Below, one piece after another: positions 14,011 through 26,042 of a stretch of 39,206 bases of DNA. The notes beneath the pieces were generated by a model that saw nothing but the letters and a program-made list of their open reading frames with translations, had not been told where the DNA came from and ran no database searches. Position 1 is the first letter of the stretch. Each line of letters begins with the position of its first letter. Source of the stretch: Actinomycetota bacterium. GTDB taxonomy: Bacteria; Actinomycetota; AC-67. The position numbers and the translations under genes are program-made. The stretch lies in NCBI GenBank assembly GCA_040905475.1, contig JBBDRM010000056.1, positions 1 to 39,206 on the forward strand, written 5' to 3'.

Positions 14011-15009
14011 ATGAGGATTCCGAAGATGAAGCCAACGGGCTGGAAACGCTGGGCCGTACTTTGGGTCGTAGTCCCCGTGCTGACGGCTGCGGTCATGTTG
14101 GGGATCGTGGTCTTCCTCCCGGACGGGTGGGGCATCGACGTGATCTTGATGCTGCCGCCGGCGCTCTTCGCCGCGCTCGTCATCGTCCATCTGTTCTCGA
14201 TGCCGAACGAGTACATGGCCCGATGGATCAAATCCCATAAGGTCGTCGTGGACGACGAGAATCGGGCCGTCATCCGCCGTTATCTGCTGCACGGCAGGAG
14301 GATCCGCACGAGCGGAGCGCTCAGCGGGCTAATCGCCTACGTCATCTACACGTCGGTGTCCTCCAATGATCTGCCGTTCGGCTGGATCGCCGCGACGTTC
14401 GGCGGCTACCTGCTTGGCGCCGCCGCGGCCGAGGTCTGGGCGCTCCGACCGCAGCGCGGATCGGTGCGATCGGCGTCGCTCTCTCCGCGAAGTATCAACG
14501 ACTACGTGCCTCGGCTGGCCGTGCTCTTCGTGCGACTCGTTCCCGTGATGACCGTCGCGGCGCTCGTCATCGCGCCCACCATGACCTATCAGTTCGGCCC
14601 AGGCCCCGAGTTCGGCGGCCCCGACGCGGCGCGCGAATGGGGAGCGCTGATCGGTTGGACGATCGGATCGATCGTGCTCGCGATCCTCGTCGAGGTGACG
14701 GCGCGACGCATCGTTCGTAGGCCGCAACCCATCACGTCTGAGAACCTCGTCGCGGCGGACGATGCCATCCGTTCGACTTCGCTGCATTGTTTGATCGGTG
14801 CAGGCCTGGCGATGATGTTGGGGATACTCTCACGGAACCTCGGAGACATCCTGAACGAGAGCGCGTACGGCTCCGATCAGCTTCGGGCCGTGTTCTCGAG
14901 CGTCATGCTCATCAGCGGCGTCTTCGTTCCGTTCGTGTGGCTACGGCTCGGGGTCGATCAGCCCTGGGTTGTTCGTCGCAGCCGTCCTCGAGAGCCGGTG
15001 GCCGCGTGA
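14011..15009 (+). CDS. Multi-pass membrane protein, operon partner of GntR
   Basis: 332 residues with about eight to nine hydrophobic segments. Two lie at the N-terminus (about 12-32 and 41-62), two near 95-135, two at 165-185 and 205-230, and two at 260-280 and 295-315. No transporter signature was recognised, and no ATP-binding subunit is adjacent. The ATG at 14011 follows GGGGG with 8-base spacing; a GTG at 14002 is possible and would add three residues. The stop overlaps the GntR start (GTGA), so the regulator is translated with it. YtrA-type regulators commonly control their own membrane-protein partners; a role in envelope stress or export is plausible but not shown. Confidence 0.7.
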   Translation: MRIPKMKPTGWKRWAVLWVVVPVLTAAVMLGIVVFLPDGWGIDVILMLPPALFAALVIVHLFSMPNEYMARWIKSHKVVVDDENRAVIRRYLLHGRRIRTSGALSGLIAYVIYTSVSSNDLPFGWIAATFGGYLLGAAAAEVWALRPQRGSVRSASLSPRSINDYVPRLAVLFVRLVPVMTVAALVIAPTMTYQFGPGPEFGGPDAAREWGALIGWTIGSIVLAILVEVTARRIVRRPQPITSENLVAADDAIRSTSLHCLIGAGLAMMLGILSRNLGDILNESAYGSDQLRAVFSSVMLISGVFVPFVWLRLGVDQPWVVRRSRPREPVAA

Positions 15010-15401
15010 TCCTGAGCGTCGACCCCGACTTGCCGGTCCCGCCTTACGAGCAGATCCGCTCCCAGATCTCGAGCATGGTGGCGAGCGGCGTCCTCCCGAG
15101 CGGAACGCGGTTGCCGCCGATCCGCCAGCTCGCCGACGACCTCGGTCTCGCCGGAGGCACCGTTGCCCGGGCCTATCACGAGCTCGAAGATTCCGGCGTG
15201 CTTGTGACGCGCGGGCGGCACGGCTCCTTCGTCGACGGATCTACGCCTAAGAGCTCGTCGAAGGAGTCGCTCGGGCTTCTCGACCAAGCGGCGCACGCGT
15301 TCGCCGTGCGCGCCAGTCAGCTGGGATACGACGTGCGCGATGCCCTCGGCGCAGCAGAACGTGCGCTCAAGGAGCTCCCGCCGGCCCGTCACACGGCCTG
15401 A
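15006..15401 (+). CDS. GntR-family transcriptional regulator, YtrA type
   Basis: 131 residues. The N-terminal GntR winged helix spans about residues 8-78 (PPYEQIRSQISSMVASG, then LPPIRQLADDLGL and GTVARAYHELEDSGVLVTRGRHGSFV). After it there is only a short helical region of about 50 residues instead of a large effector domain, which defines the YtrA subgroup. Those regulators dimerise through the short helical tail. The GTG start overlaps the stop of the membrane protein gene. The probable target is the palindrome at 13967-13986 in front of the operon. No ligand can be inferred. Confidence 0.85.
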   Translation: MILSVDPDLPVPPYEQIRSQISSMVASGVLPSGTRLPPIRQLADDLGLAGGTVARAYHELEDSGVLVTRGRHGSFVDGSTPKSSSKESLGLLDQAAHAFAVRASQLGYDVRDALGAAERALKELPPARHTA

Positions 15402-15417: not shown

Positions 15418-15446
15418 TTGACACTGCCTACCGGCGCTGGCAGAAT
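15418..15446 (+). promoter_or_regulatory. ilv leader promoter, TTGACA-17-CAGAAT
   Basis: TTGACA at 15418-15423, a 17-base spacer, and CAGAAT at 15441-15446. The leader peptide ATG begins 9 bases after the -10 hexamer, so the transcript would start at or within a few bases of the start codon. The same boxes, the same spacer and the same GGCAGAATCGC context occur in front of the leuA leader at 24319. Confidence 0.85.
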
Positions 15447-15455
15447 CGCGCCACT

Positions 15456-15503
15456 ATGCTTTCTAGGGAGGCCTTTTCGGCGAGCGTCCTCGTAGTTATC
15501 TGA
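15456..15503 (+). CDS. ilv operon leader peptide (MLSREAFSASVLVVI)
   Basis: A 15-residue reading frame directly after a consensus promoter. It ends in the codons for Ser-Val-Leu-Val-Val-Ile, so five of the last five residues are branched-chain amino acids, the products of the pathway downstream. It is followed by a GC-rich hairpin and an intrinsic terminator. This is the standard layout of a ribosome-mediated attenuation leader: stalling at Val/Leu/Ile codons under starvation would favour readthrough into the structural genes. The start has no ribosome site and would be read from a near-leaderless transcript. Confidence 0.85.
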   Translation: MLSREAFSASVLVVI

Positions 15504-15504
15504 C

Positions 15505-15533
15505 CACGCGCGGCCCCGCGGGGCATGCGCGTG
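15505..15533 (+). promoter_or_regulatory. ilv leader hairpin upstream of terminator
   Basis: CACGCGC (15505-15511) pairs perfectly with GCGCGTG (15527-15533), and the inner GCCCC/GGGGC arms extend the stem. It begins 1 base after the leader stop codon. In an attenuator this would be the pause or protector hairpin that a stalled ribosome leaves intact or alters. No clear antiterminator pairing was worked out. Confidence 0.65.
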
Positions 15534-15535
15534 AA

Positions 15536-15560
15536 CCTCTCGGCCGCCGAGGGGTTTTTT
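15536..15560 (+). terminator. ilv attenuator terminator
   Basis: CCTCTCGG (15536-15543) pairs with CCGAGGGG (15547-15554) around a three-base loop, with one G-U pair, and is followed at once by six T (15555-15560). It is an intrinsic terminator placed between the leader peptide and the first structural gene. Confidence 0.85.
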
Positions 15561-15607
15561 GTTAGGTCGATCCTTTCACCCGCCGAGGGTGAAATGTGGA
15601 GGTTGTG

Positions 15608-16204
15608 ATGGGCAGGACGGCACTGGTGATCGTGGACATGCAGAACGACATGGCGCACGCCGACGGCCGGGCACCCATCATCGACGCCGTCCATAAAGCC
15701 CCGGTGATGAACGCGATCCTCGACGCGTTTCGGGAAGCGAAAGAGCCGGTTATCCATGTCGTGCGCTCCTACCGGGCCGACACCTGGGACGTCGAGCGCT
15801 TCCGCGTCCCGTTCTTCCAGAACGACCGCGGCTTCCTGGTCGAGCGCACCTGGGGTGCACAGATCATCGACCGCCTGGTTCCCGAGCCCGGCGAGCCCGT
15901 CGTGGTGAAGCAGCGCTTCAGCGGCTTCGCGTTCACCGAGCTCGACCTTCTGCTCCGCCGCGCCGGGGTCACCAAGATCGTCGTCGTCGGCGTCAACCTG
16001 CCGAACTGCCCGCGCACCACGATGTACGACGCGGTCGGGCTCGACTACGACGTCGTCGCGGTGGCCGATGCGCTCGCAACCACTAGTGACGAGACGCATC
16101 GCATCAACCTGCAGGACCTCAGCGCCATCGGCGTGCGGATCGCGACCGCGGACGAGGTCATCCGCGAGATCGCACGCGCGTCGGACCGGATCTCGAACAA
16201 CTAA
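15608..16204 (+). CDS. Isochorismatase-family cysteine hydrolase
   Basis: 198 residues. The family triad is visible: Asp10 (VIVDMQNDM), Lys101 ([10 protein letters not shown]) and Cys134 ([15 protein letters not shown]). Members hydrolyse amides or vinyl ethers, for example nicotinamidase, N-carbamoylsarcosine amidase or isochorismatase; the substrate here is not deducible. The ATG at 15608 has GGAGG 5 bases upstream; an in-frame GTG at 15596 would place the ribosome site inside the gene. It lies between the ilv attenuator and ilvB, with 17 bases to ilvB, and would thus be expressed with the ilv genes. It has no known role in branched-chain amino acid synthesis. Confidence 0.88.
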
Positions 16205-16221: not shown

Positions 16222-17976
16222 GTGAAGATCACCGGAGCACAGGCAATGGTCCGCTCGCTCGAGCAGGAGGGCGTCGAGGTGATCTTCGGCATCCCGGGCG
16301 GCGCCATCCTGCCCGCGTACGATCCGATCCTCGACTCGCCGATCCGCCACATCCTGTGTCGGCACGAGCAGGGTGCCGCGCACGCCGCCGACGGATACGC
16401 GCAGGCGACCGGCGAGCCCGGCGTCTGCATGGCGACCTCGGGGCCCGGTGTGACGAACCTCGTCACCGGCCTCGCGAGCGCCTACATGGACTCGATCCCG
16501 ATGGTGGCGATCTCGGGTCAGGTCCCGACGTGGGCGGTCGGTGGCGACGCGTTCCAGGAGTGCGACGCGACCGGGATCACGATGCCGGTCACCAAGCACA
16601 ACTTCCTGGTGATGGACGCGCAAGAGATTCCCAAGACCATCGCGGAGGCGTTCCATATCGCGCGAACCGGTCGGCCGGGCCCGGTTCTGGTCGACATCCC
16701 CAAGGACGTCCTCCAAGCGGAGATGGCGTGGTGGTACCCGGAAGAGGTCGACCTCCCCGGATACCGGCCCGTCACCAAGGGCAACCCCAAGCAGATCCGC
16801 GAGGCGGCCAAGCTGATCCTGTCCGCTCGGCAGCCGATCCTCTATACGGGCGGCGGGATCATCCGCGCCGGGGCGGCCGACGAGCTTCGCCGGCTTGTCG
16901 AGCTCACCGGCATACCGACCGTGACGACGCTGATGGGCCGCGGCGGGATCCCCGACGACCACGAGCTGTGTCTCGGCATGCCGGGCATGCACGGCAACTA
17001 CACGGCGGTCACGGCGATGCAGAAGGCCGACCTGCTGGTGTCGCTCGGCGTGCGCTTCGACGACCGCGTCACCGGCAAGCTCGCCACGTTCGCGCCCGAC
17101 GCCAAGATCATCCACGCCGACATCGACCCGGCCGAGATCGGCAAGAACAGAGCGGTCGATGTGCCGATCGTCGGCGACGCGCGCTCGGTCATCCACGAGC
17201 TCAACGAGATCCTCGAGGCCATGATCGAGGAGCGCGGCCTCCCCGACTACTCGGCGTGGGTCAAGACGGTCCAGGGCTGGCAGAAGAAGTACCCCTACAA
17301 GTACTCGCAGACCGCCGACGGTCCGCTCAAGCCCGAGTACGTGATCGAGCAGATCGGCAAGATCACCAAGGGCGACGGGGTCTACGTCGCCGGCGTCGGC
17401 CAGCATCAGATGTGGGCGTCGCAGTATCTGCGCTTCAAGCGCCCGAACACGTGGCTGAACTCCGGTGGGCTCGGCACGATGGGGTACGCGGTGCCCGCCG
17501 CGATGGGTGCCAAGGTCGGACGTCCCGACGAGCAGGTCTGGGCCATCGACGGCGACGGCTGCTTCCAGATGACCTGCCAGGAGCTCGCGACGATGACGAC
17601 CGAGAACATCCCCGTCAAGATCGCGATCATCAACAACGCGTTCCTCGGTATGGTGCGGCAGTGGCAGGAGCTGTTCTACGACAACCGCTTCTCGGCGGTT
17701 GAGTTCGGCTACGACGTGCCCGACTACGTGAAGCTCGCCGAGGCCTACGGCGCGATCGGGCTGCGCTGTGAGACGCCGGAGGAGGTCGAGTCGACCATAC
17801 GCAAGGCGGCCGAGATCGACGACCGGACCGTCGTCATGGACTTCCGCGTCGACCCGACGGAGAAGTGCTACCCGATGGTGCCGGCCGGTGCGTCGAACGA
17901 CGAGATCATCCTCGGGCCGGAATTCGAGAAGGACCACGCCGACATCCTCCACGACACCCCGGAGGCGATCATCTGA
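16222..17976 (+). CDS. ilvB: Acetolactate synthase large (catalytic) subunit
   Basis: The ThDP- and FAD-dependent enzyme that condenses pyruvate with pyruvate or 2-ketobutyrate, the first shared step of Val/Leu/Ile synthesis. The ThDP glutamate is Glu49 ([15 protein letters not shown]). The Mg/ThDP motif runs from GDG at 444-446 to the NN at about 471-472. The family-typical GIPGGAILP at the N-terminus and [16 protein letters not shown] near the C-terminus are present. The 584-residue length is normal. The GTG start follows GGGGAG at 16209-16214. The stop shares one base with the ilvN start. Confidence 0.97.
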
Positions 17977-18500
17977 TGGCCAAACACACGCTGTCCGTCC
18001 TGGTGGAGAACAAGCCGGGCGTGCTCGCCCGCATATCGGGGTTGTTCGCCCGCCGTGGCTTCAACATCGAGTCGCTGGCGGTCGGCCCGACCGAGATCCC
18101 CGACGTCTCGCGTATGACGATCGTGGTCAACGTCGAGACCAAGCCGCTCGAGCAGGTCGTGAAGCAGCTCAACAAGCTGGTGCCGGTGCTCAAGATCGTC
18201 GAGCTCGACAAGGATCAGTCGGTCGAGCGCGAGCTGCTGCTGATCAAGGTGAAGGCGAGTCCCGAGACCCGAGCGCAGATCGTCGAGATCGCCGACATCT
18301 TCCGTTCGAAGATCGTCGACGTCGCACCCGGCGCGCTCACGATCGAGGCGACGGGTTCACCCGACAAGCTCCTGGCCATGACCGACATGCTGCGTCCCTA
18401 CGGCGTGCGCGAGTTCGTGCGTACCGGGCTCGTCGCATTGGCGCGCGGCGACCGGGGGATCGCGGACAAGGCGCTCCGCCTGGCGGAGAAGGGGGCGTAA
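17976..18500 (+). CDS. ilvN: Acetolactate synthase small (regulatory) subunit
   Basis: 174 residues. The N-terminal ACT domain is clear ([37 protein letters not shown]); this is where valine binds to inhibit the enzyme. The second half matches the C-terminal ALS small-subunit domain ([28 protein letters not shown]). It activates the IlvB catalytic subunit and makes it feedback sensitive. The ATG overlaps the ilvB stop; a longer frame exists upstream but lies inside ilvB. Four bases separate it from ilvC. Confidence 0.97.
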
Positions 18501-18504
18501 CCGG

Positions 18505-19500
18505 ATGGCGAACATCTTCTACGACGACGACGCGGATCTCTCTGTTCTGGACGGCCGCAAGGTCGCGATCATCGGCTACGGGTCGCAGGGACACGCGCAC
18601 GCGTTGAACCTTCAAGACTCCGGCGTCGACGTCCGGGTCGGGCTCTATGAGGGCTCGAAGTCGTGGGCAAAATGCGAAGCCGAAGGGTTGCGCGTCCTGC
18701 CGGTCGCCGAGGCGGCCAAGGAAGCGAACCTCATCATGATGCTGCTGCCCGACACCGTTCAGAAGAAGGTCTACGACGAGTCGGTCAAGCCGAACCTCAA
18801 GAAGGGCAAGGCGCTGTTCTTCGCACACGGCTTCAACATCCACTTCAAGCAGATAAAGCCGTCGAAGACCGTCGACGTCGCGATGGTCGCGCCGAAGGGG
18901 CCGGGCCATCTCGTGCGCCGGACCTTCACCGAGAAGATCGGCACGCCGGCGCTGCTCGCCGTCCATCAAGACGCCACCGGCAACGCGCACGCGATCGCGA
19001 AGGCCTACGCGAAAGGGATCGGCGCGACGCGCGCCGGGCTGATCGAGACGACGTTCCAGGAAGAGACCGAGACCGATCTGTTCGGCGAGCAGGTCGTGCT
19101 CTGCGGCGGGACGTCGGAGCTCGTTCACGCAGGCTTCGAGACGCTGGTCGCGGCCGGGTATCAGCCCGAGGTCGCCTACTTCGAGTGCCTCCACGAGCTG
19201 AAGCTGATCGTGGACCTGCTCTACGAGGGTGGGTTCAAGTACATGCGGTACTCGATCTCCGACACCGCCGAATACGGTGACTACTCCCGCGGTAAGCGCA
19301 TCGTCAACGAGCGGACGCGCAAGGAGATGCAGAAGATCCTGAAGGAGATCACTTCGGGCCGGTTCGCGCGCGAATGGATCAAGGAGAACGCCGAAGGCGC
19401 GACCAACTTCAACGCGATGCGCAAGGAGCAGGCGGATCACCAGATCGAACAGGTGGGGGAGAAGCTCCGCGCGATGATGCCCTGGATCGAAAAGAAGTAA
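18505..19500 (+). CDS. ilvC: Ketol-acid reductoisomerase (class I)
   Basis: Isomerises and reduces acetolactate or acetohydroxybutyrate, the second step of branched-chain synthesis. The 331 residues fit the short class I form. The Rossmann motif [13 protein letters not shown] is at residues 30-42. The cofactor loop reads [10 protein letters not shown]; the two serines usually contact the NADP phosphate, while the position often held by Arg is Tyr. Metal-binding acidic residues lie in [16 protein letters not shown] and [12 protein letters not shown]. It is the last gene of the hydrolase-ilvBNC unit; no terminator was found before the convergent CsbD-like gene 6 bases later. Confidence 0.97.
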
Positions 19501-24318: not shown

Positions 24319-24347
24319 TTGACACCCATCACGGCTCCTGGCAGAAT
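24319..24347 (+). promoter_or_regulatory. leuA leader promoter, TTGACA-17-CAGAAT
   Basis: TTGACA at 24319-24324, a 17-base spacer and CAGAAT at 24342-24347, identical in both boxes and spacing to the ilv leader promoter at 15418. The leader ATG again follows 9 bases after the -10. Confidence 0.85.
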
Positions 24348-24356
24348 CGCCGAACC

Positions 24357-24401
24357 ATGACGTCCACGAGGATCCATCGGTCGGCGCTGCTCCTGCTTTG
24401 A
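24357..24401 (+). CDS. leuA leader peptide (MTSTRIHRSALLLL)
   Basis: A 14-residue frame ending in four consecutive leucine codons (CTG CTC CTG CTT) directly before the stop. It lies between a consensus promoter and a hairpin-terminator pair upstream of leuA. This is the expected sensor of leucyl-tRNA charging in ribosome-mediated attenuation. As with the ilv leader, the start codon has no ribosome site and would sit at the very 5' end of the transcript. Confidence 0.87.
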   Translation: MTSTRIHRSALLLL

Positions 24402-24403
24402 CG

Positions 24404-24429
24404 GCGCGCTCGCCTTTCGGCGTGCGCGC
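24404..24429 (+). promoter_or_regulatory. leuA leader hairpin upstream of terminator
   Basis: GCGCGCTCGCC (24404-24414) pairs with GGCGTGCGCGC (24419-24429) around a TTTC loop, with a single T-T mismatch. It starts 2 bases after the leader stop, the same position as the GC-rich hairpin of the ilv leader. Confidence 0.7.
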
Positions 24430-24431
24430 TA

Positions 24432-24455
24432 CCCCTCGGATACGGGGGGTTTTTT
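24432..24455 (+). terminator. leuA attenuator terminator
   Basis: CCCCTCG (24432-24438) pairs with CGGGGGG (24443-24449) around a GATA loop, with one G-U pair, followed by six T (24450-24455). It is an intrinsic terminator 45 bases upstream of the leuA start. Confidence 0.85.
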
Positions 24456-24500
24456 GTTGGTCCGGATAGGCTAGGCAGAATCCAAAGGGAGGCGTTGAAA

Positions 24501-26042
24501 GTGACGGACAACCGCGTTCGGATCTTCGACACGACGCTACGGGACGGCGAGCAGTCGCCGGGGATCAATCTCAACGTCAAGGAGAAGCTCGAGATCGCGG
24601 AGCAGCTAGCCCGCCTCGGCGTCGACATCATCGAGGCCGGTTTCCCCGTCACGTCGCCCGGGGACTTCGAGTCGGTATCGGCGATCGCCCAGACCGTCAA
24701 GGGCCCGGGCATCGCAGCCCTCGCTCGCGCGCACGACCAGGACATAGATCGAGCCTGGGAGGCCGTCCAGCACGCGCGGCAGCCGCGGATCCACGTCTTC
24801 CTGTCGACCTCCGACATCCACCGCAAGTACATGCTCAACGCGACCGAGGACGAGATCCTCGCCCAGGCGGTCGCCGGCGTCGAGCGTGCGAAAGGCTACT
24901 GCGAAGACGTCGAGTTCTCGCCGCAGGACGCGACGCGAACCGAGCCCGAGTTCTTGTTCAAGATCGTCGACGCGGCGGTCGCGGCCGGCGCGACCACGAT
25001 CAACATCCCCGACACGGTCGGCTACGCGATCCCGTACGACTTCGGCGAGCTGATCCGCGAGTGCTACAAGGCGGTGCCGCGCCTCGCCGATGTGATCGTG
25101 TCGGTGCACTGCCACAACGACCTCGGGCTCGCGGTATCGAACTCGATCGAAGCCGTCCGCGCCGGCGCCCGGCAGGTCGAGGTCGCCATCAACGGCATCG
25201 GCGAGCGGGCCGGGAACTGCTCGCTGGAGGAAGTCGTGATGGCGATCAAGATGCGCCACGACCTGCTCGGGGTCGAGACCGGCGTCAACACGAAGGAGCT
25301 CGCGCGCTCGTCGCGGCTCGTCACGCTGCTGACCGGCTACCAGGTCCAGCGGAACAAAGCGATCGTGGGGGAGAACGCTTTCTCACACGAGTCGGGGATC
25401 CACCAGCACGGCGTGATCCAGGACCGGCTGACCTACGAGATCATCAAAGCCGAGGACATCGGGGTCGAGGGCGGCAAGATCGTGCTCGGGAAGCACTCGG
25501 GACGGCATGCGTTCTCGAAGACGCTCGAGGAGATGGGCTTCCAGCTCGGCAAGGAAGAACTGAATCGCGCCTTCGCGCGGTTCAAGGAGCTGGTGGATCG
25601 CAAGATCCAGATCTCCGACAAGGACCTCGAGGCGATCGTCGCGGACGAGATCCAGACCGTCGAGGAGGTCTACCGCCTGGAAGCCCTACAGGTCACCGGC
25701 GGCACCCACCTCTCGCCGACGGCGACCGTGAAGATCGTGAAGAACGGCGAATCCATCCAGGAGTCCGCGATGGGCGACGGGATGGTAGACGCGGCTTTCG
25801 GCGCGATCATGCGCGCCACGAGCGTCGATGCCAAGCTCTGGTCGTTCAACGTCGCGGCGGTCACCGAAGGCTCCGAAGCACTCGGCGACGTGACCGTTCA
25901 GATCGAGGTCGAGGGCGAGCGCTTCACCGGCCGAGGCATCTCGACGGACATCGTGGAGGCGAGCGCGCGCGCTTTCCTCAACGCGCTGAACCGGGCCGCG
26001 CGACGCGGTCACTCGCCTAGATCGGCGCAGCCGACGCCTTAG
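24501..26042 (+). CDS. leuA: 2-isopropylmalate synthase
   Basis: Condenses acetyl-CoA with 2-ketoisovalerate, the committed step to leucine. The 513 residues show the DRE-TIM barrel: FDTTLRDGEQSPG with the catalytic Arg14-Asp15, the metal ligands in VHCHNDLGLAVSNS, and NGIGERAGNCSLEEVV. HESGIHQHGV and LGKHSGRHAF in the communication region follow, then a C-terminal regulatory domain from about residue 390 that binds leucine. The leucine-codon leader upstream supports leuA rather than citramalate synthase. The GTG at 24501 is chosen because GGGAGG (24487-24492) is 8 bases before it; the TTG at 24495 is too close. The stop overlaps the convergent GNAT-like gene by 4 bases. Confidence 0.96.
   Translation: MTDNRVRIFDTTLRDGEQSPGINLNVKEKLEIAEQLARLGVDIIEAGFPVTSPGDFESVSAIAQTVKGPGIAALARAHDQDIDRAWEAVQHARQPRIHVFLSTSDIHRKYMLNATEDEILAQAVAGVERAKGYCEDVEFSPQDATRTEPEFLFKIVDAAVAAGATTINIPDTVGYAIPYDFGELIRECYKAVPRLADVIVSVHCHNDLGLAVSNSIEAVRAGARQVEVAINGIGERAGNCSLEEVVMAIKMRHDLLGVETGVNTKELARSSRLVTLLTGYQVQRNKAIVGENAFSHESGIHQHGVIQDRLTYEIIKAEDIGVEGGKIVLGKHSGRHAFSKTLEEMGFQLGKEELNRAFARFKELVDRKIQISDKDLEAIVADEIQTVEEVYRLEALQVTGGTHLSPTATVKIVKNGESIQESAMGDGMVDAAFGAIMRATSVDAKLWSFNVAAVTEGSEALGDVTVQIEVEGERFTGRGISTDIVEASARAFLNALNRAARRGHSPRSAQPTP

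Follow-up and report, generated by a model that had tools for sequence, protein, structure and literature searches.

Attenuation of transcription by a leader peptide is a textbook mechanism: in the trp, his, leu and ilv attenuators of enterobacteria, the position of the ribosome on the control codons decides whether transcription terminates. Among actinobacteria, Corynebacterium and Mycobacterium have ilvB leader peptides with an established or proposed role in attenuation, and experiments support the attenuation of ilvB by such upstream ORFs (uORFs) in both Corynebacterium (PMC10272879; PMC11857589) and Mycobacterium tuberculosis (PMC13236596). The ilvBNC attenuator of Corynebacterium (ilvB-II; Narunsky 2023, PMC10272879; Ryabchenko 2025, PMC11857589; also described by Morbach 2000, as cited in PMC11857589) has a 15-codon leader, MTIIRLVVVTARRLP, with internal branched-chain control codons, followed by a terminator; its mRNA starts one base before the start codon (PMC11857589), and its hairpin P1 spans the uORF, with a loop that pairs with the right arm of the terminator as an antiterminator. 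The ilvB1 attenuator of M. tuberculosis (PMC13236596) comprises a uORF with an LVVI motif inside it, a GUA regulatory codon, a terminator and a proposed antiterminator.

Here we describe a leader in a window of 39,206 nucleotides, the whole stretch of actinobacterial DNA that was analysed. We put the probability that this leader attenuates transcription of the ilv operon through a leader peptide at about 0.85; its translation, regulation and sign of response we infer from sequence (Table 1). It has the short ORF, the run of Ile, Val and Leu codons and the poly-U terminator of the actinobacterial ilvB leaders of Seliverstov et al. (2005, PMC1262725); the 15 codons and the nearly absent 5′ UTR of the Corynebacterium leader; and the LVVI and GUA of ilvB1. 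Its control codons, however, form a terminal run, whereas those of the ilvB-II and ilvB1 type are internal, with further coding sequence behind them. In the Mycobacterium- and Streptomyces-type loci that we examined, the peptide likewise continues past the run, and no hairpin adjoins the stop codon (L048, L056, L017 and the streptomycete leaders). Here, by contrast, the run sits directly against the stop codon, where a separate hairpin (P) also begins, and that codon is UAG in nearly every case. In the literature searched, we found no paper on leader-peptide attenuation in Acidimicrobiia, and the variant in this actinobacterial branch seems not to have been described before, although the general type of switch is known.

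Table 1. Features of the probable ilv and leu attenuators and the genes that follow them (positions in the window)
Feature	Position	Strand	Remarks
-35 box TTGACA, leader promoter	15418..15423	+	same distance to ATG in G001, G003 and family f8 leaders
-10 box CAGAAT	15441..15446	+	17-nt spacer from -35; nine bases to ATG
Leader ORF MLSREAFSASVLVVI	15456..15503	+	15 codons plus TGA; ATG at 15456, stop at 15501-15503; terminal branched-chain run kept in relatives
Control codons GTC CTC GTA GTT ATC (Val Leu Val Val Ile)	15486..15500	+	directly 5′ of the stop
Hairpin P	15505..15533	+	begins one base past the stop codon
Intrinsic terminator	15534..15560	+	stem 15534-15556, T6 15555-15560
Isochorismatase-family hydrolase, first gene of the unit	15608..16204	+	PF00857, E 1.4e-37; GGAGG at 15598-15602
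ilvB, acetolactate synthase large subunit	16222..17976	+	NF005860 and TIGR00118 above cut-off
ilvN, acetolactate synthase small subunit	17976..18500	+	annotated
ilvC, ketol-acid reductoisomerase	18505..19500	+	annotated
leu attenuator promoter TTGACA-17-CAGAAT	24319..24347	+
leu leader ORF MTSTRIHRSALLLL	24357..24401	+	14 codons plus TGA; ends CTG CTC CTG CTT, Leu only
Hairpin P of the leu attenuator	24403..24430	+
leu attenuator terminator	24431..24455	+	stem 24431-24450, T6 24450-24455
leuA, 2-isopropylmalate synthase	24495..26042	+	likely start GTG 24501; HMGL-like, LeuA_dimer

An initial annotation of this DNA had described a consensus promoter, a 15-codon frame with five branched-chain codons before its stop, a GC-rich hairpin and a terminator with six T, all upstream of a hydrolase-ilvBNC unit. 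The frame, the hairpin and the terminator are present where it placed them, and the gene order downstream is as it described. For the promoter, the position, the TTGACA and the 17-nt spacer stand, but "consensus" was slightly generous, as the -10 box matches at only 4 of 6 bases. This is the sole promoter-like (sigma-70-like) site between 14000 and 20000, with 10 of 12 matches and a mean of 0.5 in shuffled sequences. Given nine bases between -10 box and ATG, transcription would start near 15453, leaving a 5′ UTR of about 3 nt without room for a Shine-Dalgarno sequence, and the leader frame is predicted to be translated. The same box stands 9-10 nt 5′ of the ATG throughout the window's family and family f8, making their leaders essentially leaderless; an AGGAG resembling a Shine-Dalgarno sequence precedes the start in leaders of other families (L128, L130-L132). 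The folding energy of the 66 nt from the last control codon onward is -38.5 kcal/mol, where shuffled versions give -26.1 (z -4.0).

Is the arrangement maintained in relatives? Five genomes sampled the class, and the two of the window's family in which ilvB was found are G001 and G003. Their ilv leaders, MGFKDRTGLLVVVT and MKTRTFARGTVVVFV, show the same order of promoter, frame, hairpin and terminator, as does the leader MFASYLVVVVT* of BP_122, an Actinomycetota MAG (L031). One gene, of the isochorismatase family, separates the window's leader from ilvB; the BP_122 leader, 157 nt from ilvB, is too close for such a gene to intervene. Loss of the frame or of its terminal codons in close relatives, which the initial annotation had set as a refuting test, is not seen, since G001, G003 and BP_122 keep both. 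It had also suggested looking for compensatory changes: the arms of both hairpins have diverged among relatives and their pairing is preserved. Little of the sequence beyond these hairpins and the codons is conserved. Within the window's family, Val is the constant residue of the leader tails, and Leu and Ile vary; the window's leader may sense charged Val, Leu and Ile tRNAs jointly, as was first proposed.

A wider survey used a detector with three requirements, namely a branched-chain run at the end of the frame, a T-run and a stable stem; it was blind to the identity of the stop codon, to hairpin P and to particular codons. Among 166 regions upstream of ilvB (starts located by tblastn), it yielded 63 leaders of the window's type, mostly actinobacterial and Acidimicrobiia-like. 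This sample includes many MAGs and was cleared of near-duplicates by eye, and its counts overstate independence because the sequences are related. By the detector's own criterion, 0-2 residues follow the last branched-chain codon in these 63 loci; none does in the window. GC-rich DNA abounds in short frames and hairpins, and a chance arrangement has to be weighed on that account, but its probability is negligible: the detector found one site in total in 40 shuffled windows, against two in both strands of the 39-kb window (the ilv and leuA leaders), and all 18 of the sites that it found in 49 ilvB loci (1.1 Mb, both strands) lay upstream of ilvB.

The element before leuA, which the initial annotation did not include, is a second, leucine-only copy. 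Its leader ends in SALLLL where the one before hydrolase-ilvBNC ends in SVLVVI, and its promoter is near-identical, so that the leu attenuator (24319-24455) is apparently a retargeted duplicate of the ilv one. Leu codons before leuA and Val, Leu and Ile codons before ilvB are as amino-acid attenuation predicts, and this match between peptide tail and pathway strongly favours a leader-peptide attenuator. The leuA of G003 also has a leader, MSQNLLLT*, with stop TAG and the same hairpins (L193), and that of G001 has none, the gene standing shortly past the end of serA. Of 30 regions upstream of leuA that were scanned, 28 yielded no such leader (two of these with less than 400 nt available), and scans of the window's own genome for the promoter and terminator patterns returned no leader besides the ilv and leu ones. 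With the same promoter, the same order of hairpins and different amino acids, the two copies in one window amount to a natural codon-swap experiment.

The control codons themselves are biased. In the last six leader codons, compared with the ilvB genes of the same loci, GTA makes up 63% of Val codons, against 2% in the genes (p 6e-66), and CTT 42% of Leu codons, against 5%; CTG, which supplies 43.5% of Leu codons in the genes, falls to 4.5%. Theory predicts that attenuators use codons whose isoacceptors are among the early ones to become uncharged, and the Salmonella leu attenuator grew less sensitive when CUA was replaced by CUG (PMC1183508). The bias here is as expected if these are stalling codons, and recalls the biased control codons of enterobacterial attenuators (CUA in leu; PMC1183508).

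Why should such leaders end in UAG? This stop closes 60 of the 63 leaders and only 31 of 178 long ORFs of the same loci. The answer appears to lie in hairpin P, whose relation to the stop codon was also not part of the initial annotation. In the non-redundant leaders, P starts at the first base past the stop in 46 of 49 and at the second in the other three, and in all 46 leaders where this could be tested the third base of the stop pairs with the base 3′ of P, the pairs being read from predicted folds with own-versus-other tests as their control. Forty-four of these closing pairs are G-C, one is G-U and one is A-U, the last in a leader with stop TGA (L074); the second stop base pairs no more often than chance would have it. 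A closing pair with the last base of the stop accounts for the UAG in 60 of 63. The window's leader, one of three with TGA, has a P that begins one base later, and its leu copy has TGA too; it is an ordinary, slightly derived member of the group. As a clean rule (UAG because its G closes P), the join of stop and hairpin predicts the effects of single-base, compensable mutations.

In the own-versus-other tests, each arm of P matches its own partner far better than it matches a partner taken from another species (z -13.9; 10 permutation standard deviations), the arms of the terminator (T) do likewise, and G-C, C-G and A-U types all occur at stem positions +1 to +3 of P, counted at anchored positions and not from an alignment. 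Against shuffles, the mean fold z is -3.2 for P and -4.0 for T, whereas the last 45 nt of the coding frame are without structure (z 0.1). In Candidatus Actinomarina (L072, L073), the control codons and the P loop share TTTACTAGTATT, a palindromic 8-mer whose two copies could pair.

How might the switch work? Transcription would begin some three bases upstream of the ATG, giving a nearly leaderless mRNA on which a ribosome would initiate and translate the 15-codon frame. With plentiful branched-chain aminoacyl-tRNAs, the ribosome would reach the stop and the terminator would halt transcription before the operon; with scarce ones, it would slow at the Val, Leu and Ile codons and more polymerases would enter hydrolase-ilvBNC. 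Hairpin P, abutting the stop codon, is well placed to read where the ribosome stands. On the assumption that the ribosome edge lies 12 nt beyond the first base in the A site, stalling at the first control codons would leave P closed, and a ribosome whose A site holds the stop codon would have to open P, covering most of its 5′ arm. This geometry suggests that position is read at nearly one-codon resolution.

The step from ribosome position to terminator is where the locus departs from enterobacterial attenuators and from Corynebacterium: no 2:3 antiterminator was detected, nor any pairing like that of the P1 loop, and the sensor hairpin closes on the stop codon itself. When the ensemble was folded with the ribosome edge at every position, terminator formation stayed at 0.87-0.92 throughout and no antiterminator appeared. 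Comparisons of own with other duplexes gave no clear upstream partner for either terminator arm, a comparison that invariant complementarity or kinetic folding would escape. Three candidates were rejected. A classical 2:3 antiterminator between P and the 5′ arm of the terminator has an own complementarity below that of mismatched pairs. One formed from early leader codons (AGGGAGG/CCTCTC in the window) finds no room in 11-codon leaders and shows no own-partner excess. Mimicry of the terminator 5′ arm by the P loop is seen in several sequences, and its signal across the set is weak (p 0.035 for the loop together with the 3′ arm; 0.07 for the whole of P).

A conventional antiterminator that escaped these calculations, with the 3′ arm of P or the leader pairing with a terminator arm in a three-way attenuator, is nevertheless a version of the main reading with a fair, though less than even, chance of being right. 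Corynebacterium has a system of this kind (PMC10272879, PMC11857589), and a hairpin starts past the control codons in two mycobacterial-type leaders, L048 and L017; in L048, this hairpin, past LVVI, pairs its base into the 5′ arm of the terminator before the 3′ arm is made, so that a switch is visible there. In the group studied here, the loop and 3′ arm of P match the terminator 3′ arm weakly above chance (p 0.035, with twelve comparisons made). Their own pairing with the terminator 5′ arm, however, is weaker than that of mismatched species (p 0.013), and P and T are able to fold together. Rather more doubtful is a bolder version, in which the stop codon is a part of the switch, its last base closing the sensor hairpin, and P needs no conventional antiterminator in order to act, working for instance through pausing of the polymerase or its coupling to the ribosome. 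With no antiterminator found, how ribosome position reaches the polymerase becomes a directly testable question.

The same result bears on a different account, in which the leader carries a terminator but its translated frame does not set termination, the codons being a relic or influencing translation or the stability of the mRNA, and control of the operon lies with another factor such as an upstream GntR-type regulator. Besides the missing antiterminator, changes to the candidate control codons of the Streptomyces coelicolor ilvB leader had no effect, as cited in PMC1262725, and a GntR-family gene does lie at 15006-15401. But G003 has ilvD beside its leader, not this gene, and the Leu-only copy before leuA, the codon bias and the coupling of P and stop in 46 of 46 leaders speak for selection on ribosome position, which makes this account unlikely. 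Ribosome-mediated attenuation of ilv, the reading with which the initial annotation began, is supported by the leaders of relatives and by the leuA copy, with the antiterminator not found.

An RNA that senses something other than translation is more improbable still. Other bacteria do have ppGpp riboswitches and further RNA motifs associated with ilvB (PMC10272879), but in these leaders, where little sequence is conserved beyond two hairpins and the codons, a ligand-binding riboswitch, T-box or ppGpp riboswitch is very unlikely. No Rfam family reached its gathering score in the window and 14 homologous loci, in a set from which ilvB-II and ilvB-OMG may be missing; the weak matches were unrelated, none of them to an ilv, T-box or ppGpp family.

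Several features of the neighbourhood deserve mention. The GntR-family gene directly upstream of the leader encodes a protein of 131 aa that is Rv1152-like but below cut-off. A perfect 8-bp inverted repeat, TTTCACCC-GCCGA-GGGTGAAA, lies at 15574-15594, just 5′ of the hydrolase Shine-Dalgarno sequence, and is absent in G001 and G003. An isochorismatase-family gene stands between leader and ilvB in all three genomes of the family in which ilvB was found (the window, L111 and L112). In families f2 and f8, the leader lies 400-530 nt before ilvB (L005, L009, L011, L013, L134-L147), and in several of these loci a small conserved ORF of about 90-140 aa (MRYEFERDGTVVASVLWEGPGQV...RRDWTPWEFERACRNLA) occupies the interval.
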